From: Ulva prolifera
Lineage: Eukaryota; Chlorophyta; Ulvophyceae; Ulvales; Ulvaceae
Assembly: GCA_023078555.1 (NCBI GenBank)
Contig: CM041201.1
Span: 129,213-193,212, forward strand
Direction: 5' to 3'
Length of the DNA stretch: 64,000 nt
The notes under the pieces are model-generated. The model worked only from the letters and a program-made list of their open reading frames with translations, was not told the origin of the DNA and did not search any database. The translations under genes were made by a program, and so were the position numbers. This document shows, in pieces, positions 9,501 to 52,203 of this stretch (its first letter is position 1; each line of letters opens with the position of its first letter).

Positions 9501-12500
9501 ACTGCCTGTTGTGCTATGGGACCGTGTAAGGCTGCAGCAGCCACATGCCACGCACTGCGCGTCAATGCTACGGCCGCTGTGAGGTCCCGTGTGCTGCGGG
9601 GTCGGATGGTGCCTTGATACACACTCTGCCGGCTATGGCGGACCCGGCGCTGCACAGGCAGGCATGTGGCGCAGCATGGCCCCACTCAGCGCAAGCATGC
9701 CGTCTGCATGTGCAGGTTCTGCTCGAGGCGGAGGAGCGGCGCCTGCCGGAGATGTTGGCGCGGCTCGGCTTCACTGCGGAGGTCGCGGCGTCTGCGCGCG
9801 CGGGCGCGGGTGCGTCGGAGCAGGTCGAAGCGGCGGCCGCGCTGCTCGCAAACTCGTCCCTCGTCGGCGACAGCGGGCCCCTGCTCGGCGACGGCGGCGG
9901 CGCGGACAAGCGGTTCTTCGACCCCGATGCGCCGCCACCCCCCGCCGTCGCGTCGCCGCGGCCTGGCGACGGCGGCCCCGGGGCCGCCGGCGCGGGCAGC
10001 TTCTTTGAGAACCTGAACGCGACCGGGTCGCTGACGCCCAAGGAGAAGTCCGGGCGGGGGCCGACGTTCGGCGGCGGGGTAAACGGCGGCGTCGGGGACT
10101 CGGGCACGCTCGAGGCGGAGGCCGAGGGCGAGACGGAGCTGCAGCGTCACCTGTTCATTGGCAACCACGCACAGGCGGTCGCGACGTGCCTATCGCATGA
10201 CCGCCTCGCCGATGCGCTCATCGTCGCGCACGTCTCGGCCGACCCCGCCCTGTGGCAGTCGACGCTCGAGAAGTACATGGAGGTGAGCCCGCAGCCGTAC
10301 CTGCGCGTCGTGGAGGCCCAGATGCGGGAGGACTACGAGAGCCTGATCAAGTCGCGGCCGGTCGGGCGCTGGGCGGAGACGGCCGCGATCCTGCTGACGT
10401 ACGTGTCCCCGCCGGACTTCCAGTGGCTGTGCAAGAAGCTCGCGAAGCGGCTCGACGAGAGCGGCATGCGGCACGCGGCCGCGCTGTGCTACATCTGCGC
10501 GGCGGACGTGGACAGCGCGGTGACGCTGTGGATGCGGGACGCGCATGACTCCGGCCTGCCGGTGCCGCGGCTGCAGGTGCGCTCGCCGCGGTCGTGCTGC
10601 CGAGCGATGTCTGGGGAGGTCCTGGCCGGATGCGCGGGCGCTTTGCATGCTCAAATGACGATATCGCGCCGGTTATTTGGACCTATTGTTCTTTCGTGTC
10701 TGCCGGACTGTCCCTGGATCCACCGGTGCCTGCGCGGCGCCCAGTTCTTGGGTGAACACACCAGCATGTTAGCGTTTCCTCAGGGTGGCGCTCCATTCGA
10801 CGGCCGTGGCTCGCCTGGCCATCACACTCTCCCTGAAACAGCACCGCTGCCGAGAATAAGGAGCACAGCAGGCTGACGAGCGCCGGCCCGATGCCCGACG
10901 CCGCGTGCGCGTGTGTGCAGGCTGTCCTGGAGAAGAGCATCGCCCTGTGCCTCGCCGCAGCCAACACGTCCGCAACGTCGGCCCTCGCCGACCTGCTCGC
11001 GAACTACGTGCTGCGCCTCGTCGACCAGGGCGCCATGCGCTCCGCGATGACGTACCTCGGCCTCCTCGACAGCCTGCCGCCTGATGCGGCCCCCGCGCTC
11101 GCGATCCTCCGCGACCGTGTCGCGCAAGCCGCCGCCGCGGAGGTGCGTCCGTCAACACTATCCCCCCCCCCCCCCCCCCTCATTGCTTCGTAACTTACCG
11201 GTGGCGCAGATATCAGAATTGATTTGTGGCGGCTCCGCTGGCATGTAGTGTTGCTGGTGCAGATATACGTGCACGTGGTGTGGCGTATGGGGCTCACAGC
11301 ACATGGGTTCGTCCGTGTGCGCATGCAGTGTCTTGCGGCGTAGCCGCGGCAGCATCTGCTGTTACAGTGCCCTGTACCAATCCGGCCATCTGCGAGCCGA
11401 CGATGCGCAGTCCTTGCGTTGCTTCTGCGGACTTGCCGACTGCACGTCGTCCTCGTATCAGTGGCCGGCATCAGACGCTGTCCATGTGCTGGCCACACAT
11501 TCTGGGGGGTCTGCGCACACGGCACACACCACATTCCCCGACGTGCGGTCGATGCTCGCCTGCAGATGCCGGACGCCGCCCAGGCCAACGTCCCGCCGTT
11601 CGAGTACGTCGACGTGCCCGTCAGCGCGCAAGGCGGCGCCGCGCAGCAGGAGCAGCACAGCGCGGCCGCGGCGGCCAGCCAGTACTCGCATGGCGGCCAG
11701 TATGACGCGGCCGCGTACGGCCAGGGGCAGCAGTACGCCAGCAGCGTGGGGTCGCAGGCCCCGGGCTATGGCGCCTCGAGCGCCTCGCAGTACGGCGGGT
11801 ACGCGGCGCCGGCCGCGCCACAGTATACGGCGCCCGCGCCGCCGCCGGCCGCGACCTCGACCGCCCCGACCGCGTACAACCAGTCTGTGTACGACCCTGC
11901 CGGGAACTACGGGAAGACTCGGCAGACGTACCTGCAGTCGTACCCGTCCGCGGAGCCAAAGGCGTACCAGGCGCCCCCGGCGCAGGCGCCGCCTCTGCAG
12001 CCGCAGCACAGTGGCTACAGTGCGGGGCCGGCGGTGGGGGCGGGGCCGCGGCGCTTCACGCCGAAGCCCCAGACGCCCGCCGCGCCGACGTCTCCGTACG
12101 CTCAGCCCGGGGCCGCCCCTAGCCACCCGCACTCTCCCGGCGCCGGTGCGCGGGCGCAGCAGTTTGCGGCGGAGCCGCCGCAACAGCGGGCGCCGCGTGC
12201 GGTGTTCCAGCCGATGCACGCTGCCGCGCCGCGGCCCCAGCCGCAGCCGCAGCCGCAGCAGATGCAGCCGCCGCAGCCGCCGCAGCCGCCGGCCCCCCCG
12301 GCTCCTCCGGCCCGTCCCCCGGGCCCTCCCCCAGACTGCTCTGTCTACAACGTCGACACAAGCAACGTGTCTGCCCACGTCCTCCCTGTGGTCCAGAACC
12401 TGATGGGCCTCTACCAGGCACGCTCCCTGCTCCATCCTGTCACTGCATGTCGAATTGAACACAACTTCTCTGACGAAACCATGGCCACCTCGGCGTTACA

Positions 12501-30173: not shown

Positions 30174-30618
30174 TTGGGTGCTGCTGCAAGGCAAAATTGC
30201 TCTGGACCTCCGTCCCCGACGTCTTCTACAACGATTTGGTGGGCCTCCAAGGTAGACCGAGCACGTGGAGATTCGGGTTGGTCCTTTGCGAAGTCGTTGT
30301 AACCCTCTGACCACCAGCATTGCCATCATGCCACTTGACTGGGCAGGACACGGCAATGTATATTTGATGATGTTGGACTGGCACCTCTTTCACAATCACA
30401 GTAATAATATTTGATGATATTATCGTGCATATACGGGGAGTATCTTCCAGCTATGTTTTCGGTATGAGTAGCGGATGACGTGCGGAGTTAGGGATCGACG
30501 GAACGTGTTCATTCTTCACGACACTCTCAATCCAGAGCCATGCGCAAGCTGCAGCGCCACCATAACAGGCCCGCTCGGATGTGTGATCTGACCCTTCAAG
30601 TTTAGCAACGCGTCCCTG
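30174..30618. other. Intergenic, CLPR2 / phosphoacetylglucosamine mutase (tandem)
   Basis: 445 bp with a TGTAA at 30298-30302 for CLPR2 and, after it, an AT-rich stretch before the next gene. No gene seen. Confidence 0.5.
30298..30302 (+). terminator. TGTAA poly(A) signal for CLPR2
   Basis: TGTAA 125 nt after the stop codon, in the usual chlorophyte position. Confidence 0.55.
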
Positions 30619-33600
30619 ATGTCGCATGTTACATTGAGCAAGGCAGTGCTGGCTGCATCCGCACAGCATCCAAAGCCACCAGACTTCAGACCCAGCTATG
30701 GTACAGCAGGATTCCGGACAATTGCTCAGGATCTAGACAGCACACTGTTTCGATGTGGCATCTTGGCGGGGCTGAGGGCACAACAGTGTGCCTCTGCTGT
30801 CGGACTCATGGTCACGGCCAGTCACAACCCAGAACCGGACAACGGCGTGAAAATGGTCGAGTCCAACGGTATGAAGCTAACATGTGTACGGAGCGACGTG
30901 GTGATCATCGTCTGCAGGAGATGCCGAGCACTTTGCGTGCAGGCGAGATGCTGATTCCAGATTGGGAAGCCTACGCAACAGCGGTAGCCAACGCCAACAC
31001 CGATCAAGAGCTCTTCGACGCACTACAGCACGTGATCGAAAACGAGAACATCACGGCAAGTGCAAACGCAACTGTCTTGATTGGCGGAGATACACGCCCT
31101 CATACCGAGGCGCTGGTACATGCAGCCTGCCAAGGGGTGGAACTCAGTGGCGCTCGTGTCGTGAACATCGGAACATGCACGACTCCCGTGCTTCACTATT
31201 CCGTCCTGCAACATAATCAGCCCAGCCTAGCCCCGTACGGACAGCGACTGGTGGAGGCATTCAAATGTTTGACTTCAGGTGCACTCCTCCCTTGCCAGAC
31301 TGGATCACTGCTGGCACCACCAGAACACCTGTGTTTCGTATCCCACCGTTTTCACCACCACCTTCTGAACAAATCAGACCGTCATTACACACGTACGGAA
31401 ATTCGTGAATTGCCCAGGCAAGGTGTCTGCCCATATCGCATCTCAGCACACATCAGCTCATCGACAATACCACAGAAATGCAGCCACACAGGCTGCATGG
31501 CGGCCGTGATGACTGCACCTGCAAAAGCTGTCCTCGAGCCATCTGTCGCCTCCGAGCGCATGCTAACCTCGATTGCGTGTCCACCGTGCTTCCATGTCAT
31601 ATGCATCTATCCCTGCATAAAACACACCAGTAAAGTACAGTAAATCTGAATTTGCTGAGCCGTATCCTATTGGACATTGACAACTCCGAGTTGACGGGAC
31701 CACATATGCCGACCAGTGCTGCGATCATACTCACGACCACACAGCACTATCACACAGCACCACATCCATCAACGCCCACGCAGCTCCATCCTGAGGGGGG
31801 AGCCTGCGGCGACTTGCGCGTTGGGCCGGCAACGGCCGGGCTGCCAGCTTGGGCCACCACGGCCGCGGCGCGGTCGTTTTGCGTGAGGGCCCGGGGCTGC
31901 GGGTCTTTGTGGCTGGTGAGCGGGCGGGTGCGCGGGTGCGTGTTCGGTGGGTGTCTGTCATGCTGTGGTTGAGCGCCGTCTTCAGGTTCGGCGAGGGTGT
32001 ACATCTCCTGCCGTGCATGCATCGTGGCGTAGGCATGCTTGTGTGTTGCCCCTGGTGGTGCTACCAGCCACTCCGACTTAGTCCTCACAACCTGACTCCA
32101 GCCTCTCTCCATTGCGAGCTCACAAACAGCCCGCCACTCCTGCCCACCTCCGCTACACATTCTCAGCCCCAAATCACTCCTCCATCGCAAGCCCACCGCA
32201 ACAAACCATATACCGTACTGAAATTAAACCCATCGACATCGAGGGCAGCGTTATTGTGTACAAAATATTTCTGGGGCACGCCAATTTGGCCACCGTTATG
32301 CGTTACAGGTGTTTTAAAATTTTCGGAGACTCGGCGTGACGTGACGTGAGGTGCTCTAAGCGTTACGGGTGTACGAAATATTCCTGGATATACGGCCCAT
32401 CTGGCCACCGTTACAGCGAGGTGTTTCAACGCCTCTGCAGGCCTGCGTTATGCGTTACGTGTCGATGGGTTTAATTTAGTACGGTACTCACTCACAGCGC
32501 CCCATCAGTCCGCCTCTGTGACTCCGCTTGCTGGTGCAAAGGCAATCATATTCTGCCAGTGCAGAGTGCAAGGCGCCAGAACTCTCAATCTGCCTCGACT
32601 GTGCTCGCGGTGTCGGTGCCCTGTCGCCAGATGGCCTCCTCCCCAAGCCTGCCCAATCATCGCAGCTGGACGCATCGTCCAGCCAGGCCAGCACGCCACC
32701 GCCGCAAGCCCTCCACGTCCCCTCCCATGGCCTCTCCATCTCGCTGCACAACACCCCTCCCCCTCCCACCACCCCCCCCACCCCCACCGGCCTGAACGAC
32801 GGCTGCGGCAGTGACTTCGTCCAGACTCAGATGCAGTGGCCACAGGGGCTATCCGCCGCCGACGCTGCGCATGCTGCGTGCTGCGCGTCCTTCGACGGCG
32901 ACGCCGACCGCATCATCTTCTACTCGCCGGCGCAGCCCGCGGCGGCTGGGCCCCCTGCGGCCGGGACCCCGCAGCGGCCGTGCATCCTTGATGGCGACTA
33001 TATCGCCGCACTGGTGGCCATGTTTGCACAGGAGGTGCTTGAGGCTCTGCCCAAGACGGAAGAGCTGTCCCTCGGTGCGCGGCCGCGCACTCTGACCATG
33101 TCCGCGATGTATGTGTCCGCCGGGGCAGTAACACGTCACACTTTTGTATTACATTCGTCTCAGGGCCAGCGCGCGCATATCAATGACTGATTGCCGCGGG
33201 AAAGGGCGGGGGGCTTGTGCCGGGCCCGATACAGCCGGGCAACTTTTGAACCCATCAACGCCTCTATGGATGTGGCTATGTGACGATGCATGCATGCATA
33301 AATGAATCAAAATGGCCACGTGGCCTTTCACACTGTCCACAAAGGCATGGCTCTCGTACGCAGTACAGAGCCCCATCGTCCGTCCTCCGCATTCACACGC
33401 TCGCATACTGCGCGTGCGCGCGATCCAGCAGCCAAGACGGGTGCGGTCGTGGCGCAGGGGTCGTGCAGACGGCGTACTCCAACGGCGGCGCGACGGCGGC
33501 CCTCGCCGCGCGCCACGTCGCCACCACCCTCGCGCTCACCGGCGTGAAGCACCTGCACGCCGCCGCGGCCGCCTTCGACGTCGGCGTCTACTTCGAGGCC

Positions 33601-37555: not shown

Positions 37556-38047
37556 GGTGAGGCCTGATGTAGCGCTGCAAAAACAGAACCTTGGTCAGGC
37601 CGATACACACAAGCGGATTATGTCAGCCACAGCACAGCATGCGCATCCTTAATAGATTGCAATACCTGGCCCTGATGTACAGCAATGTTTGTTCACTGAG
37701 CACTCTTGGGTCGGGTGCAGAGAGCGCAGTGCATGTGTTTGATCACAGCCGCGAACAACCCAACGGCGGAAACAAATTCGACATTGTCAGGGAGCCTGGC
37801 CGAGCCCTGGTAGGGACGTGATGGCCTGTCGAAGTTTCGCGCGCGAGGACGCGCTCAGCAGTGGCTACAGTGGTAACGGAACAGAATTGAAACAGCAATC
37901 CACGCTGCGCGCTGCCCAATTCCAACGAAGAATGTATGCTAACGTTAAGGCTCCACGAACAACCAATCAATTATCACACTGCAATATTGCGCTGCATTGA
38001 CCAAAGAGCGACACTGTTTCCGATTATTAGGTTGTCTGACTCCTGCC
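37556..38047. promoter_or_regulatory. Shared divergent promoter, QCR7 / CCT1
   Basis: 492 bp between two start codons facing away from each other, both housekeeping genes. No gene seen and no clear TATA box; a bidirectional housekeeping promoter is inferred. Confidence 0.45.
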
Positions 38048-40235
38048 ATGGCCTTCCAGGGCCCCCAACAAGGAGGCCAAGGGCCTTTAAGCATCAGAGG
38101 TACTAGAGAATCGGGTCAAGATGTTCGTACGGGTAATGTCACAGCTGTGGTGGCTGTGGCCAACATAGTCAAGAGTTCGCTAGGACCAGTGGGTCTTGAC
38201 AAGATGCTTGTAGACGACATCGGTGACGTCTGCATCACCAATGACGGAGCTACCATACTGAAAATGCTTGAAGTCGAGCATCCGGCTGCCAAAATTCTTG
38301 TTGAGCTGGCGAACCTGCAAGACCAAGAGGTCGGCGATGGCACCACGTCCGTGGTCATCGTTGCTGCCGAGCTCTTAAAGCGTGCGCATGATCTGGTGAA
38401 GAACAAGATTCATCCTACCAGTATCATTTCGGGGTACCGCATTGCCATGAAGGAGGCCATCAAGTTTGTAGAGAGCCACATGGCGATCAGCACCGACACG
38501 CTCGGTGAAGACATCCTCCTGCAATGTGCAAAAACCACGATGTCGTCCAAAATCATAGGTGCCCAAGAAGACTACTTCGCTAAGATGGCGGTCGACGCTG
38601 TTCAAGCAGTGAAAACCATCACGGATATTGGAGATGTCCGATACCCGGTCAAAGCCATCAACGTGCTGAAAGCGCACGGACGCTCTCTCATGGAGTCAAA
38701 ACTGATTAAGGGCTACGCATTAAATATGGGAAGGGCTGCGCAGGGCATGCCTACAAGCGTTCGGAACGCGAAAATTGCGTGTGTAGACTTCAACTTGCAA
38801 AAACATCGGATGCACATGGGCATTCAAGTCCAGGTTTCAGACCCCAAAGCCCTCGGCAAGATCCGAGATGAGGAAATGGAGATCGTAGCACGTAGAATAC
38901 GTGCCATGATTGATGCTGGTGCCAATGTGATTTTGACTACCAAAGGCATTGATGATTTCTGCCTGAAGCTGTTCGTCGAGGCGGGGTGCATTGCATGTCG
39001 CCGTGTCCCGAAAGATGACATGAAGCGAATTGCTCGAGCGACCGGAGCAACCATTGTAACAAGCCTGGCGACTGAGGAAGGCGGTGAAGCTTTTGACTCT
39101 GCGCTACTTGGATCATGTGAAACTGTGTTTGAGGACCGTGTCTCAGATGATGACATGATCTTCATTCAGGGCTGCGCTTCTGCAACGTGCGGCATTCTCC
39201 TACACCTGGCCTTCCTTCTTGTGCGTGTTCATGCACAGGCTGATTCCACTCCTTCGGTATCGTTTGCACCGCCACCAAGAGCATGGCCCCTGCAAGCGTA
39301 CTCAATCTGTTTATCTTCGCCAATCTTCACCATTCTAGCACCCAGATCGCAGGTTAATCTGGCCCAAGCACCGTCCTTGGTAATCCATGCCACCAGGCTG
39401 CGCTCGTAACAACGGTGCTGCTGGTGCAGGGCTGTGACCGTGCTGCTTCGTGGTGCCAACGACTACATGCTTGACGAAGTTGACCGAGCACTGCATGATG
39501 CACTTTGCATTGTGAAGCGCGTGCTGGAGAACCAGTCTGTTGTGCCTGGTGGTGGTGCAGTTGAGGCAGGCCTGTCAATATACCTTGAGAACTTTGCCAG
39601 CGCCCTTGGCAGCCGCGAGCAGCTCGCGATCAATGAGTTTGCAGAAGCCCTCCTCGTGGTGCCAAAGACCTTGGCCGTCAATGCGGCGAAGGATGCAACT
39701 GACCTAGTGGCAAAGCTGCGTGCCCTGCACAACATTGCACAGAAGCAAGAGGAAAAGAAGTATCTGTCCTCGGTGCGCTCAGACTGCCTCACTGCTGGAC
39801 CGTCCTGCATGCTGCAGCTCTGGTATTATCCTTAGGCAATCGAATGTGGCAAGTGGAAGCACAGGCTGGCCTGGCGTCTGCACGAACTTTCGACATTTGG
39901 ACACCGCATCTTCCAATCTACACATTGCGCTATGTGCAGTTGCTTATGTAGTCGGGTCAGCTTCCTGTTTACCTACTTCACCATCACTAGGATGTTGCAT
40001 ATTCTGAACTGCACCAGGATCACAGTGGTAAGAGCATCACCGGTGGAACTCTGTGCTGCAGTGGGGGCTGGATCTGATCGCTGGCGCTCCGTGCAATTGC
40101 ACCAAGAATGGGGTTTTGGAGCCGACCATCAACAAGGTCAAGCTCATCCAGTTTGCAACTGAGGCGGCGCTCACAATTTTGCGCATTGATGACATGATCA
40201 AGGTCGAGCCAGATCCGGCGGAGGAGGAGCAGTGA
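38048..40235 (+). CDS. CCT1: CCT1/TCP-1 alpha, cytosolic chaperonin subunit
   Basis: One of eight subunits of the TRiC/CCT double ring, which folds actin, tubulin and WD40 proteins with ATP. Three exons join in phase: 38048-39186, 39430-39772 and 40062-40235 (TGA), giving 551 aa, normal for the family. Equatorial-domain motifs: [40 protein letters not shown] and the ATP-binding GDGTTSVV (residues 96-103). The apical domain has [20 protein letters not shown], and the second equatorial half [28 protein letters not shown] and [12 protein letters not shown]. Alpha-specific features are the [14 protein letters not shown] and [18 protein letters not shown] stretches. The ATG follows a short 5' leader and fits the family N-terminus. 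Confidence 0.97.
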
Positions 40236-42768: not shown

Positions 42769-45700
42769 ATGTCGCTGAAAGTAATGGATTCCCATTGCGG
42801 CCCGGTGTATGTCCCTGAAGCCCCGGGTACCGGAGCCGACACTGATGCCAGTATTCACATCCTGCTGGTTGATGACGACACACTTGCACGCCACATTGTC
42901 CGAAAGGCTTTAGAGAAATGTCATTACAAAGGTGCGATGGCGGGATTCTTCGATTAAATATACAGTCCACGATGCAAGGCTCTCCGAGTGCCTGGCACAT
43001 CAGCAACGGCCTCTAACACGCCCAGCACAGCGTCAAGTCAAACTGCTTTTCGATCTTCAGATAGTTTGTAGGATGCATGTCCTTGTTCTTCTCCATGGTC
43101 CTTGTGATCGATTTAACCCATGCGATTGGATCTGCAGTGACAGCGGTTACCAGCGCCAAAGAAGCTATCCGTGTTCTGGAGAGTACAGACGTGGACACAT
43201 TTCAGCTAATTTTGACGGTAAGACCACTCTGAACAGTTGCGGATTCGCGGAACGTCTCGATCAGCCGTGGCACGAATTTCACACTCCACGTAGACATCAC
43301 AGCTTCGTGTGCTGGACCACGGTAGCCTCAACGCCGTGCCGTGTATACAGGACGTAGTTATGCCAGTGGGAGGAGACGGTCTGGATCTATTGGAGCACGT
43401 GAAGAGCAACGTCGTGTGGAGGTCTATCCCGGTTGTCAGTACGCCCATCTCCTGCCACGCCTCACAGTCGGCCTCAACACATCACCATTCACAATTTCTG
43501 ATATCTCTTGTGCATCTGCAGTGATGTCCGCGAACGAATGCATCGATACCGTCCGCGAGTGCTTGCAACGGGGCGCCAGTCACTACATCCTGAAGCCTGT
43601 CACCCAGAAGGAGATCAAATCCCTGTGGCAGTACGCGTACCGCTCCGCCACTCGGCCAGCCCACGTTATCGAAGAAACTACAGTGCCCGCTAGCCCCAGC
43701 ACAAATGGCGCTGCTCCAGCCACGGACATTCCCATGATCGCAACAAAACCTGCTGGCCTGTGCGCAAGCAAAGGCCCGCATGTTGCAACCCCCGCACCCG
43801 CAACTTCGAGCCTCGCCCCGGCTGGCACAAACATGCCCCTCAACTCCGCCCTCGAGTCTCTCAGCCTTCCCTGGCGCACTCGCCTCACCGTCTTCTGCCA
43901 ACTCCTCCACAATACCCGCATGGCGTTCGAGTCCGCCACCCCAACCTCCACCTCTGGCCCCCTCGCCCCCCGCCCCCAACCCTTCACCAACTCCGCCTCC
44001 ATCCTCATCTCGCCCTCCACGGGCGCCATTGCCGCGTGCCACACGCCCCCGCACCACTTCTCCTCCTACTTCTACCGCGCGCCCCTCTCCCGCGGCGCCA
44101 CGGCCTCGACGCACTACCTCCGCAGCTATGACGCCGCCTCAGCCACGTATGCTCTCGGAATCCTCCTCCTCGAGCTCGCGATGGCTCCCTGCCCGGCCAA
44201 GGTCCGTACGGAGTACCTCTCCGCCCTGCCACGCGTCCCGGCGTCCCTCCTCTCATCCAAGCCCGACATCGCGGTCCTCGTGCTGCGTATGACGGCTGCA
44301 AACGCGGGCGAGCGACCGTCGCTGGTGCAGCTGACGCGGGAGCGCGCGGTCCATGCGGTGTACAGCACCGTGGCGGCCGCGGCGAACGTCGTTGCGAACC
44401 AGCAGGCCGCCGGCTCGGTCGTGATCCGGCGCGCGTTCCTGCAGAAGGTCCGGGAGAGCCGCAAGGAGCACATCGCGGGCGTGACGGCTGACTTGGAGTG
44501 CCTGGAATCAGATCTCTCACGAGTGCGTCGCGGCCGACCTGTCCCTGTGGCGTGCCCGCTTTGTAGTGATGACTGCTTCTGGTGTCGGCCGCTTGCCAAT
44601 AATCGCCACCATTTACTGTGTGTGCCTGTGTGTTCCTGTGTGGTGGCTCCGTCCAGCGCTGGCTCGCCTGTTTGTTTCGGACATATCACACGAGTTCAGA
44701 CCATTGCATAGCAGAGCATCGAACCAGACCGTAGAACAACGGGACCTTCAGCATGCATCCAAAGATCTAGCGGACGCATCCCCACTAGCAGAGGAGGCAA
44801 CTCGTGCACATGGTGAGATTTGCTGACATATCCCGTGACATGTGATGCCGTGCAGGTTCACGCCGCGTTGCAGCAGGTCCAGCAAGAGTCTGGGCGGCTA
44901 CAAGCATCCTGCGATGTGGGCGGGGCTGACGCGTCTGCAGGCGCTGCCGAGGCGCCAGGAGCCGCACGAAACGGCGTGGAGGCTCTCGCAGCACGGCCAG
45001 CACACATCTCGTGGCCGAGACGACGGCGTGCCTGCGGCAGCGATGACGGCATGGGCGCCTCTGCCACAGACGGTGTAGGGTTTGGGGCTACGGATGGTAA
45101 CACAGGCAGCAGCAGTGGTGACCGCACTGATGTCGATGCCGGGACGGTGGCGGCTGATCATATCGTCAAAATCGGCGGCCCAGGCGACAAACCGGCGAAC
45201 GGCGTCAAGGACGGAGTGGCTACGATTGACGGTGTTGGGGAGTGCGCGGACGAGAATCCGCAGAAGCGGCGGCGTGTCGACACCGATGCGCTGGAGAGCA
45301 CCGTCAAAGTTGCTCACGCGAGCGAGAGCGAGGGCCAGACGGTCGTCGCAATGGGCGGCCCCGCGGGTGAGGTTGTGTGCGGAAGCCTGGCAGAAGCAGC
45401 TGGTGCGCATGCGGCCGGGGACCCCGACTGTGCAAGTGACAGTACACTCAAGCTTAAGGCTGGGGCTGATTCCGATGACGCCGTGCCGGCGTTGAACCTG
45501 TCATCCAAGCCGAAGGCCGCGCCGATACCGAATGCGGTGCGTGAGCGGTGGGAGCACGTTAGCCCGCTCGCGATGCAGCTGTTTGGGGGCTACCGGATGT
45601 CGTCACGGCTCGGCCGCGTCGCACACGAGGGGTGCGCGGAGGCGTCCGGCGGGGCGGCCGCCGGGGCCTTGGCCGGTGCAGCAGACCCGTACCTGCACTC

Positions 45701-47294
45701 GGCGCCGTGGCTGCGGTCAGTCGCGAGGGACCTGCAGGCGGTGGCGCGCTTCCGGTGGCTGCCGGTGGTGTCGTCTGTGCAGCATGCGCCGAGCAACACG
45801 CTGGACGGAAACTCCGGCCGGCGCATGGTGTGCGCGGTCGCGCTCGACCGCTGTGAGGAGAACCTCGCAGTCATCGGTGCGAACCTTCGCGCCGTGAATA
45901 CGGGCTCTCGGAGCGTCCTGTGATCGAGTCCCATTGCTCCCTGAGCTGAGCTGCAGTGCTTACACCCACATATGTGTCCCGCATGCTTCTTGAGTTCTCG
46001 AAAGGGGGGGAGTTGTTCATGTTGTTCATGTACGTTGTTGTGTATATGTAAGTTGTGATGTGTACATGTAAGTTGTTCATGTACGTGAAGGTTCTTGTGG
46101 TGCAGGTGTGAATAAGACGATCCGGCTGTTCCGCTTTGCCAACATGACGGATGAGCACCTGCGTCCGAGCGAGCCGCGGTACCCTGTGAACGACCTCACC
46201 GTGCGTTCGAAGCTCACGTCGGGGTGCTTCAACGCGTACCTGCAGCACCGGCTCGCGATCGCGGACAGCGACGGCGGCGTCACGGTGCTCGATACCGCCG
46301 CGAACGTCGAGCTGATGCAGTTTGAGGAGCACGTGAACCGCGTGTGGAGCGTCGACTGCAGCCCGCACGACCCCGCGCTGCTGCTGTCGGCGTCGATGGA
46401 CAAGACGGTGCGGTTGTGGAGCACCGCTCAGGAGGAGAGCGTCGCGATGATCGTCGAGACGCACCAGGTTCGCCTTGCCAGCCCTGCAGCTTCCTCCCAT
46501 CTCGCCGCATGCTCTGCTGTGAGATGTTGTGGCACTCAGGTCACACCTGAGGTGTTGCACCTGAGGTGGAGGCTCGGCTGCAGCACCTTTTTGTGCCAAG
46601 GTCTCGTCTGGCACATCCAGGACATCATGCTGCATCTTGTTTGCGGCGTGTGTCGTGCATGTTTGCGTTCAGCCAAAAAGAATCTCAACAAACAAACGAT
46701 CGCATCACATCCTCATCGTGTGGTTTTCAAGGGTTGGCGGTGGTGGCGTAGGTGTGCAGTGCGGTCTTCCACCCGCAGAACGCGAACCTCCTCGCCCTCG
46801 GCACCGCCAACGCGGCGCTGAAGCTCTACGACATTCGGCGCCTCGATGCACCCCTCGGCACCGCCTCCGCCCCGCGCGCCGTCAGCTACGTCCGCTTCAT
46901 GGGCGACCACGTCGTCGCCGCCGCCGTCGACTCGGTGATATGCATGTACAACACCGCGGCGGTCGCGCGCGGCGCGGAGACCGGCGGCGGCCTCGTCGAG
47001 CCGGTGCGGGAGTTCCGCGGCCACCTCAACCAGCGCCACTTTGTCGGCCTCGCGTGCAGCCCGGAGGGCTACATCTTCACCGGCAGCGAGAACAACTCGG
47101 TGTGCATGTACCACCGTAGCGTGCCGACGGCTCTCGCGGAGCAGCCGGTGCTGACGCAGGACGCGATGGGTGGCGGGCTGATCCACGGGGCCGAACGGCC
47201 GATTGTGAACTGCCTGACAGTTGACAAGGGGCTGAAGTATGTTGTGTCGGGTGGAACGACGGGCTGGGTGAACGTGATGCGGCTTGGTTCGTAG
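42769..47294 (+). CDS. PRR-like receiver fused to a SPA/COP1-type WD40 repressor
   Basis: Seven exons join in phase: 42769-42931, 43138-43217, 43351-43438, 43522-44522, 44856-45876, 46106-46467 and 46752-47294, giving 1085 aa. Residues about 29-145 are a receiver domain: acidic pocket LLVDDD (Asp35-37), phosphoacceptor Asp82 (DVVMP), Ser113 (MMSAN) and Lys135 (ILKPV); its end (LKPVTQKEIKSLWQYAYR) is PRR-like. About 190-390 is a degenerate kinase-like region as in SPA proteins (TYALGILLLELAM, AGERPSLVQLT), then a coiled coil (HIAGVTADLECLESDLSRV). About 470-770 is a Gly/Ala/Asp-rich linker with the NLS-like QKRRRV. About 770-1085 is a COP1/SPA WD40 propeller (VNRVWSVDCS, DKTVRLWST, HFVGLACSPEGYIFTGSENN). 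SPA proteins support COP1 ubiquitin ligase in light signalling. No RING or CCT domain. The receiver end and kinase-like region share one exon, so the fusion is not a splice-join artefact. Confidence 0.88.
46016..46090 (+). repeat. Short imperfect tandem repeats in intron 5 of the RR-SPA gene
   Basis: Repeated GTTGTTCATGTACGTTG-like and ATGTAAGTTGT-like words in about 75 bp, just before the acceptor of exon 6. TG-rich and otherwise unremarkable. Confidence 0.6.
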
Positions 47295-49660: not shown

Positions 49661-52203
49661 TCACAGCGTGCGGCCGTACGTGCCAAAGAGACCGCGGGGG
49701 TGGTACGACAGGCCTTCAAGAACGCGGCGGTCCTGCGGCGGCTCCACCCAGACGTTCCGGATGGGGTCGTACTTGCCCATGCGGTGCGGCGTCGGCACGC
49801 GCGCGCGCCCCGAGCCGCACCGCCCCGCCTCCCTCAGCTTCTGCACCTCGCTGTCCTGCAGCACCGGCTCCGCCGCTTTTGTCAGGGCAGCAGCTTTGGT
49901 CTCCCTAGCCATAGCCAATAGAACGTGACCACTCCGAACCACCGAGACACAAGTCACAGCTTGACGGAGTCAACCACCTGGGAGCCCCCGTCAGGCGACC
50001 GTTTGCATCCCACAGGGCTTCCTTGTATGCTAAGCGAGGTGCACTCGGCACACAGCGGTGAGCCCTGCATGTGCATGGCACACGCACAGCGCACAGCCAT
50101 GCGCCCCCACGCAGTGCATTCAAGTGGAGAAACGCTCACGCATGATTCACAGGGCAACCAGAACAGCCAAGACACTTCAGAACTCCGAAGCAGCCTCGGT
50201 AAGCCCTCGCTCCGCCGGCTCCGGCGCTTGCGAGATGTGCAAGTGTACCAGACGCCCCCGCTCTCTGACGCTGCGCACTCCGCTGCCATCGGCAGCCCAG
50301 ACATCGAACAGCGGGCCTCAGTGTACTGCTTGGGGCCAGACTCAGTGGCACAGCAGGGCCGGGTGTAGCATGCCAGGCTGCATGTGTCGAGGAGTGCGCG
50401 CCGCAGCCGCCCCTCCTATGCATGGGACAAGAAGAGCGGGCTGCATGCCCACCAGAGCGCGGGACACGGGAGAGCTGTGAGACGGCGCCACACCTGGAAG
50501 GCGGGGGCGTTTGGCTTCAGCGTCCACTCCCCCCGGATCGGGTCGTGCTGGCCCCAGGTCTCTCCTCGGAGGATCGTCTTGCGGCCGGTCGGGCGCACGG
50601 TGTTGGCCGTGTCCATGTTGGTCCCGTTCGTCGGCGCCGCGGTGAACTGGTGTCTGCAAAATGCAGGGAACGCAATGGGGCCCGTGTCTCACGAAGGCCG
50701 CAGGTGCCAACCAGATGCTTGCCGGCCACAGGCAGGTATCGGGCGACAATTTTGTGACAATTTTCGCAGCAACAGCTGTCAGGACAGGGCAGCAACGGTC
50801 GGCACCAACCGCAACTGGCCCAGCCATCGCCACCAGGCCTGCCATGCCATCCACAGCACAGAACCCTGAGAAGGTAGCCAACTATCAACAGCGCGACCCG
50901 ATCTGGCGCTGCAGTCCGCAAAGACGTGATCATGCCACAGCGTGTGCCGTTGAGCTGATTCGAAGAGGCCGCCGTTCACAGCAGCTATGGCCAGGTCAGG
51001 AAATGCTGCACTGTCAAACCGCCGGTCGCAGTGCCATGAGCTACGTCTCGACACCAGGCCAGCCCCTGAGCCATGGTACGTGTTGCTGCTGGGCCAGGTG
51101 CGCTGAGTGTTTGGCACATGCCAGAAACCAGGTATATCCCAAGCCCTGCCTCGTGCCACCTTGTACATGGGGTCAGCGACCGCAGCAGCTGCAAGCCGGA
51201 CTGATCATCCGCGGCCGGGGCGTGGCCGATTTGCATGGCAGAAGTGCGCGAGACAGACAGGCGTGACTGCCAGGAGGGCGGGGGCGCACCGGATGGGGTC
51301 ATATGAGCCCTGCGGCGGGTGCTGGTGCCGCACGCCGACCTCACCCCACACCCGGGCGCCCTGCCGTGTGCGGAACGCCTCCGCGGCGGAGTCGACGGGC
51401 TGCTGTAGTGGCACATGGTGGATCGGGTCGTAGGCTGTGAAGGTGCAGCCGTGGGCGGGCGCTCGCTGGTGCGTGGGTACCACGTCACCGTTCTCTCGCC
51501 ACCGCCGCTCTGTGGTCCCCGGGCGGCCGGTCGTTCTCTCCAGTTCCATCGAATGTTGCAGTGTTTCGGGCATGACGATCCACTCGTTTGTGATGGGATT
51601 GTTCACGCCGGTGGCGTTGCGAGAGGTGCCTTTTCCACGCCCGCGGTCGACGATCTTGCCATCGTCAAATTGGCAGGGGGACAGCTCAGAGGGCTGCATC
51701 GCACATTGACGTTGGTGTGGGCTGCAGGTATGCCTAGAGGAGGGATCAACACCAGACCTTGGACGCTTGCTGCGGTGCAATCCACATCGTGACAGGACGA
51801 AGCAAACAGGCCAGTGCTGTATGGTTGCAGCAATATGGGCGAAATTCTAGCGGAATGGGAGATGCGGGTTTGTCAAGTTTCCCCACACAAGTGCATCGAG
51901 GCAGCCATGGAAGTTGCATAGACACACAGACCCTAAACTACAGCTGATGCAGGCCTCAAGCAGGATGCCACAATCGAACGGATGTGATACCCTGTGGTGA
52001 TCCTGGAGAGCTCCCCGCTGAGTTTTGAATGTGTTCATGTGTCTCTCTTTCTGCTCAGCATATTTGCTGCAGTCCATGTCCTGCCGCAACATCTCGTGCC
52101 CCTTGGTTCCGGGAGCTTTACGCGGAATGTCCGTGATGTATTGCTTTCGAATCTCATGTGTGTTGGTGTAGGCGGAAAAGGCGGGTCGAGCTTCATCACA
52201 CAT
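49661..52203 (-). CDS. DPI-repeat protein, unknown function
   Basis: Four exons join in phase: 52203-51991, 51693-51290, 50653-50494 and 49855-49661 (TGA), giving 323 aa. A short motif recurs: NNPITNEWIVMP, AYDPIHHVPL, SYDPIRHQ, QHDPIRGEWTLKP and KYDPIRNVWVEPP, that is an aromatic or polar residue, then DPI (once NPI), then R/T/H and often a Trp a few residues on. The N-terminus is basic and helical (TNTHEIRKQYITDIPRKAPG). No signal peptide or membrane helix. Short aromatic-DPI repeats resemble those of structural, microtubule-associated or ciliary proteins, but I cannot name a family. The last exon could extend upstream, because the same frame stays open to about 49957. The ATG at 52203 is the first plausible start. 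Confidence 0.65.

Follow-up and report, generated by a model that had tools for sequence, protein, structure and literature searches.

The window, a 64,000-nucleotide stretch of the Ulva prolifera genome (contig CM041201.1, positions 129,213 to 193,212 of the forward strand), carries a gene in which a phosphorelay receiver domain is joined to a protein of the SPA type. A seven-exon model of this gene (42769–47294), with GT-AG boundaries at all junctions, encodes 1085 amino acids and has the following parts:

42769..42931, plus strand: exon 1, N-terminus and start of the receiver (D35 at 42871–42873, D36 at 42874–42876)
43138..43217, plus strand: exon 2, receiver
43351..43438, plus strand: exon 3, receiver (phospho-acceptor D82 at 43351–43353)
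43522..44522, plus strand: exon 4, end of the receiver (S113 at 43527–43529, K135 at 43593–43595), linker, kinase-like region and most of the coiled coil
44856..45876, plus strand: exon 5, end of the coiled coil, variable linker, pre-WD40 segment and start of the WD40 part
46106..46467, plus strand: exon 6, WD40
46752..47294, plus strand: exon 7, end of the WD40 part and stop
42859..43622, plus strand: receiver domain, residues 31–144, exons 1–4 (Pfam Response_reg)
43851..44375, plus strand: kinase-like region, approximately residues 221–395 (SPA profile from residue 294/314, and Foldseek on the exon 4 model)
44376..44522, resuming at 44856, plus strand: coiled coil (SPA profile; helix 274–332 in the exon 4 model)
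42932..43137, plus strand: intron 1, after K54, phase 1; place and phase as in a type-B response-regulator gene of the same genome
43439..43521, plus strand: intron 3, after V110, phase 1; place and phase as in the same type-B gene

Elsewhere in the window, an open frame upstream of the SPA gene (37949–39406) matches the Cpn60/TCP-1 chaperonins (1e-104), and two further frames match the Sec16/Sec23-binding TPR (9530–10876) and phosphoglucomutase domain I (30606–31643). The minus strand at 49661–51602 holds exon-like frames in which a DPI motif recurs; two of these frames were scanned and gave no Pfam match.

The receiver is assigned to Response_reg by Pfam (residues 31–144, 79.7 bits against a cut-off of 30.2), and a receiver profile built without the Ulva gene gives it 148.5 bits. 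Its catalytic set is intact, with the acid pocket D35/D36/D37, the phospho-acceptor D82, S113 and K135 all lying where a preliminary description of this DNA had placed them. The same description had proposed an in-frame fusion to an SPA-type protein within exon 4, and this holds: a single frame in that exon runs from the end of the receiver (residues 112–151) through the kinase-like region into the coiled coil, most of which it encodes. An SPA profile from which the Ulva gene and its two close relatives, P0001 and P0002, had been left out matches the protein with 59.9 bits (1.6e-18), and the match (aligned residues 314–464, envelope 294–502) spans the join between exons 4 and 5. The WD40 part matches COP1 chains (7.1e-45 over residues 745–1031) and is also reported as WD40 repeats by Pfam. 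The Pfam scan of the 1085-residue model did not match Pkinase, so that of the proposed domains Response_reg and WD40 are recovered by Pfam and the kinase-like region by the SPA profile. Exon 4, modelled with AlphaFold at a mean pLDDT of 77, contains a long helix (274–332); the best 50 of the 1756 Foldseek rows for this model are all kinases or pseudokinases, at weak similarity (best E of 6e-4, query TM-scores of 0.27–0.37). The 25 of 27 Pfam families listed for the model include neither a RING finger, the trait that separates SPA from COP1, nor a GARP/Myb DNA-binding output nor a CCT domain. The presence of receiver and SPA parts in one gene goes far beyond a chance match, and, at the level of sequence, the model shows the receiver, the kinase-like region, the coiled coil and the COP1/SPA WD40 part to be a single gene.

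An additional exon within intron 4 (44728–44812) was considered and dropped; the SPA profile and the corresponding segments of the relatives (VHAALQQVQQ and VHTALWHVQ) fit a direct exon 4/exon 5 join. The segment corresponding to intron 4 (44523–44855) is stop-free in the predicted proteins P0001 and P0002, so an isoform retaining this intron would stay open there; the Ulva frame closes at 44711.

P0001 and P0002 have the same domain order and the same junction as the Ulva gene, as far as the beginning of the WD40 part. Both share 39 of 40 receiver residues with Ulva, while 38 and 40 of 69 residues, respectively, are identical in the adjoining linker and 61 of 210 in the long second linker. 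Because the receiver is nearly identical while the linkers diverge, the pattern looks like purifying selection on the domains and not like a pseudogene or an accident of assembly. It is extremely improbable that the model merges two adjacent genes or reflects a misassembly. The receiver is split over four exons and the gene model comes from genomic sequence, which would leave room for such an error, but the single frame across exon 4, the junction shared with P0001 and P0002 and the recurrence of this domain order in 15 named green algae speak against it. Furthermore, P0156 and P0164 are unbroken frames of ~1000 amino acids on contigs of 3.5–3.7 kb, which appear to be spliced messages. The fusion is real.

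The spread of this architecture was followed in a protein search with the WD40 region of Volvox as the query, in which the best 120 of 1178 matches were examined; together with P0027, P0028 and the Ulva model they make a set of 123 rows. A receiver profile trained on its own matches finds a receiver in 34 of these 123 SPA-type rows, seven of them partial. Where all five catalytic positions are covered, the receiver is canonical in 26 of 27 rows, and 24 of the 26 are distinct sequences. The preliminary description knew of no described protein of this layout and had called for a search of other chlorophytes; in the protein database the same order, with a full canonical receiver, recurs in SPA-type proteins of 15 named green algae. 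These are Volvox africanus, Pleodorina starrii, Astrephomene gubernaculifera, Gonium pectorale, Chlamydomonas eustigma, Tetradesmus obliquus, Trebouxia sp. C0004 and C0006, Elliptochloris bilobata, two Micractinium, Chlorella variabilis, Parachlorella kessleri, Nannochloris sp. and Cymbomonas tetramitiformis. Cymbomonas belongs to the Pyramimonadophyceae; the other 14 we take to be Chlorophyceae and Trebouxiophyceae. Several of these entries carry the automatic name ‘Response regulatory domain-containing’. The Ulva receiver is 44–56% identical to the other canonical SPA receivers, and the AlphaFold model of the receiver of a Trebouxia relative (P0162) has the (beta-alpha)5 order.

The receiver profile finds no match in the remaining 89 of 123 rows. 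These include all named land-plant rows examined, as expected from the preliminary description, in which land-plant SPA proteins have no receiver, together with a Closterium row and rows P0171 and P0173, presumably from Spirogloea (SM codes). A Marchantia control scores -1.9. The chlorophyte rows among the non-matching ones are of two kinds. The first comprises pieces that seemingly start inside or after the receiver (e.g. P0025 and P0237), and the second comprises proteins with long N-termini in which the profile detects no receiver (Pyramimonas P0209, its tree neighbour P0204 and P0028, which from its database code Tetstr1 we presume to be Tetraselmis striata). P0028 was considered as a degenerate receiver and rejected; its N-terminus is alike by eye, yet it scores 3.2 bits, a value matched by 4 of 381 scored shuffles (500 made). 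Other names deduced from database codes are those of P0150 (Chrzof1, presumably Chromochloris) and P0193 (Chlat1, presumably Chlorokybus). Scans of viral and genome contigs gave pattern matches, none of them a relative. In Sanguina aurantia P0160 the domain is kept, with D36, D82, S113 and K135 replaced by I, S, A and A. This is a pseudo-receiver that has lost four of the five catalytic residues in a member of the Chlamydomonadales; P0159 is also from Sanguina aurantia. Judged from these predicted proteins, the receiver-SPA arrangement is a conserved and widespread chlorophyte design; the receiver is as a rule intact, though some members lack it or have a degenerate form.

The origin of the receiver was addressed with a tree of 68 receivers over 124 columns, from which the near-duplicates P0156, P0158 and P0170 and the partial rows were left out. 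All 24 SPA receivers fall into a single group (98/90); with ARR1 and the type-B receiver of the Ulva genome this group makes up a clade (99/93), the bootstrap being unsettled. One receiver of an Ulva hybrid kinase was included and falls among bacterial receivers; a fourth Ulva receiver stands outside on a very long branch. The tree contains no PRR/TOC1 receivers, so ‘type-B-like’ means nearest among the receivers included. ARR1 is also the best PDB match to the SPA receiver. Two of the three introns in the SPA receiver, 1 and 3, have counterparts of the same number in the type-B gene of contig C5, at identical residue and phase; the position of intron 2 differs between the two genes. On the grounds of the tree and the shared introns, the receiver was likely derived from a plant-type (type-B-like) response regulator, in a fusion that kept two introns.

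Type-B regulators (ARR1 and the C5 gene) have the nearest receivers in the tree and the PDB search, but their output is a GARP DNA-binding domain and not an SPA/WD40 part. Another green-lineage receiver joined to a light or clock output is that of PRR/TOC1, which carry a CCT domain, unlike the Ulva model, for which the Pfam scan shows none. Land-plant PRRs lack the phospho-acceptor Asp. According to the available text of PMC12704426, Ostreococcus TOC1 keeps it.

The closest comparison for the remainder of the protein is with land-plant SPA proteins (SUPPRESSOR OF PHYA-105 1, SPA1-RELATED), which have in common with the Ulva gene the kinase-like region, the coiled coil, the COP1-type WD40 part and a place in the WD40 tree. 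They differ in that the named rows have no receiver match and that many list Pfam Pkinase, which is absent from the Ulva protein. Among algae, Chlamydomonas SPA1 (Cre13.g602700) is a chlorophyte SPA like that of Ulva. Its cloned coding sequence of ~4.17 kb (PMC6736836, available text) fits the 1405-residue receiver-SPA of Volvox, a comparison by size and not by sequence, and a receiver is expected in it; the word ‘receiver’ does not occur in the main text of that paper. The available part of PMC8226298 calls Cre13.g602700 a COP1 orthologue ‘currently annotated as SPA1’, and that of PMC5749748 states that microalgae have one SPA homologue.

That the layout is unknown elsewhere is not supported by the literature either. 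A paper of 2025 reports, in the text available, ‘REC-WD40’ putative response regulators in all surveyed Mamiellales genomes, i.e. a receiver and WD40 repeats in green algae, as in receiver-SPA (PMC12704426). Its main text contains no COP1, and the two words that begin with ‘spa’ are other words. That the Mamiellales proteins are receiver-SPA is a guess, as they are likened by description and not by sequence. No description of a receiver in SPA was found in the literature searched, although the 2019 PNAS paper on Chlamydomonas SPA1 may have one in a domain drawing. The main text of PMC8775618 lacks the word ‘receiver’, the available portions of PMC5749748 and PMC3310802 mention no receiver in SPA, nor does PMC12558739, and a whole-word search of PMC12866927 gave neither SPA nor receiver. 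Receiver-SPA is conserved and widespread in chlorophytes and is not described as such in the literature searched.

COP1/SPA has a central role in repressing light responses. It gates photoprotection in Chlamydomonas, where the SPA1/COP1 ligase keeps CONSTANS-dependent photoprotection repressed (PMC6736836, available text). The route by which light and stress reach COP1/SPA in algae is partly known, and a phosphorylatable receiver is a concrete candidate for an input that comes down to one Asp codon. Treating algal SPA as plant-like overlooks this N-terminal signalling domain. In a search of the Ulva genome, the window gene was the one SPA-type locus found, and contig C3 carries a COP1-like locus whose RING and WD40 exons share a strand. 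The genome also gave at least one HPt, at least six HisKA and at least 11 CCT matches, so the parts for a phosphorelay and a CONSTANS-type output exist. Five CCT matches lie within ~62 kb on contig C2 (C2:8332375–8394725), four of them on one strand and ~5.6–6.9 kb apart; they are possibly a tandem cluster of CONSTANS-like or related genes.

A phosphorelay input on a COP1 cofactor, as put forward in the preliminary description, is plausible, and input to the COP1/SPA ubiquitin ligase appears to be the likeliest role of the receiver. The clock-type input suggested alongside it is unproven; the Ulva receiver groups with the two type-B receivers included in a tree built without PRR/TOC1. A histidine kinase would phosphorylate D82 via an HPt protein, and the resulting change on the output face of the receiver would alter dimerisation of the SPA coiled coil, binding of COP1 or binding of substrates. 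The ubiquitination of targets such as CONSTANS-like factors would thereby be tuned, up or down. As a whole, we consider it fairly probable that Ulva has one SPA-type gene of a conserved chlorophyte form, with an N-terminal receiver that comes from a type-B-like regulator and provides a putative HPt-to-D82 input tuning SPA/COP1.

The receiver might instead need no phosphorylation and serve for docking or dimerisation, like the pseudo-receivers of land-plant PRRs, recruiting SPA to partners such as type-B regulators or PRRs. Sanguina, which keeps the domain with four of its five catalytic residues lost, and the kinship of SPA receivers to type-B receivers speak for such a role. Docking need not retain D82, S113 and K135, however, and the conservation of all five residues in 26 of 27 rows makes it rather unlikely. 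A receiver that persists as a stable N-terminal domain of minor function, serving folding, stability or localisation, is more improbable still: the named land-plant rows, P0204 and P0209 do without a receiver match, but in the alignment of SPA receivers 30 of 122 columns, the catalytic five included, are invariant over 26 rows. Among the species that carry the receiver, the phosphorelay reading is weaker for Ulva than for the others, because its WD40 part has the longest branch in the WD40 tree (3.18) and a Ser at the position of COP1 Tyr441 (encoded within 46106–46467), the sole Ser there in 61 rows. At positions 422, 465, 467 and 595 the Ulva residues are those of COP1; the numbering of the COP1 WD40 pocket is presumed and agrees with the spacing observed.

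The WD40 tree was built from 61 of the 123 rows without a COP1 outgroup and rooted by choice on 14 streptophyte rows, and is for these reasons blind to gain versus loss of the receiver. In it, the Ulva gene lies among the chlorophyte SPA rows, weakly with trebouxiophytes (an open fork, 88/93). The 14 streptophyte rows stand apart from the chlorophytes, and P0193, the presumed Chlorokybus protein, is on the branch between them. P0193 contains a first-exon piece of a receiver, RLVDEKRVSRLLVGNLLRKCGYQ, which ends at the place of intron 1. Of its 26 residues, 16 are common to the Trebouxia SPA receiver, versus 5 and 6 to the type-B receiver and ARR1. Left out of the profile, P0193 scores 19.1 bits (7.4e-6), which is moderate evidence; an earlier score of 36.9 bits was inflated, since the first profile included P0193 itself. 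The piece could be a relic or, since small exons can escape gene prediction, part of a complete receiver that has been modelled wrongly. P0195 jumps from the place of intron 1 to that of intron 3; it seems to be another model of the Cymbomonas gene, at zero distance from P0197 in the WD40 tree.

On the basis of this single row, P0193, and on either reading of it, the fusion may be older than the split between chlorophytes and streptophytes; streptophytes would have lost the receiver later if the presumed Chlorokybus piece is a genuine remnant. The receiver in SPA suggests that two-component signalling may have fed a ubiquitin ligase directly and later have been dropped by land plants. More tentatively, and with somewhat less than even confidence, a phosphorelay-controlled SPA could be ancestral in green plants: the COP1/SPA ligase would have begun as a direct output of histidine kinases, chlorophytes would keep this control, and streptophytes would have lost the receiver and given control to phytochrome, cryptochrome and UVR8. 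Were this ancestral reading true, the first-exon receiver piece of P0193 would be its trace.
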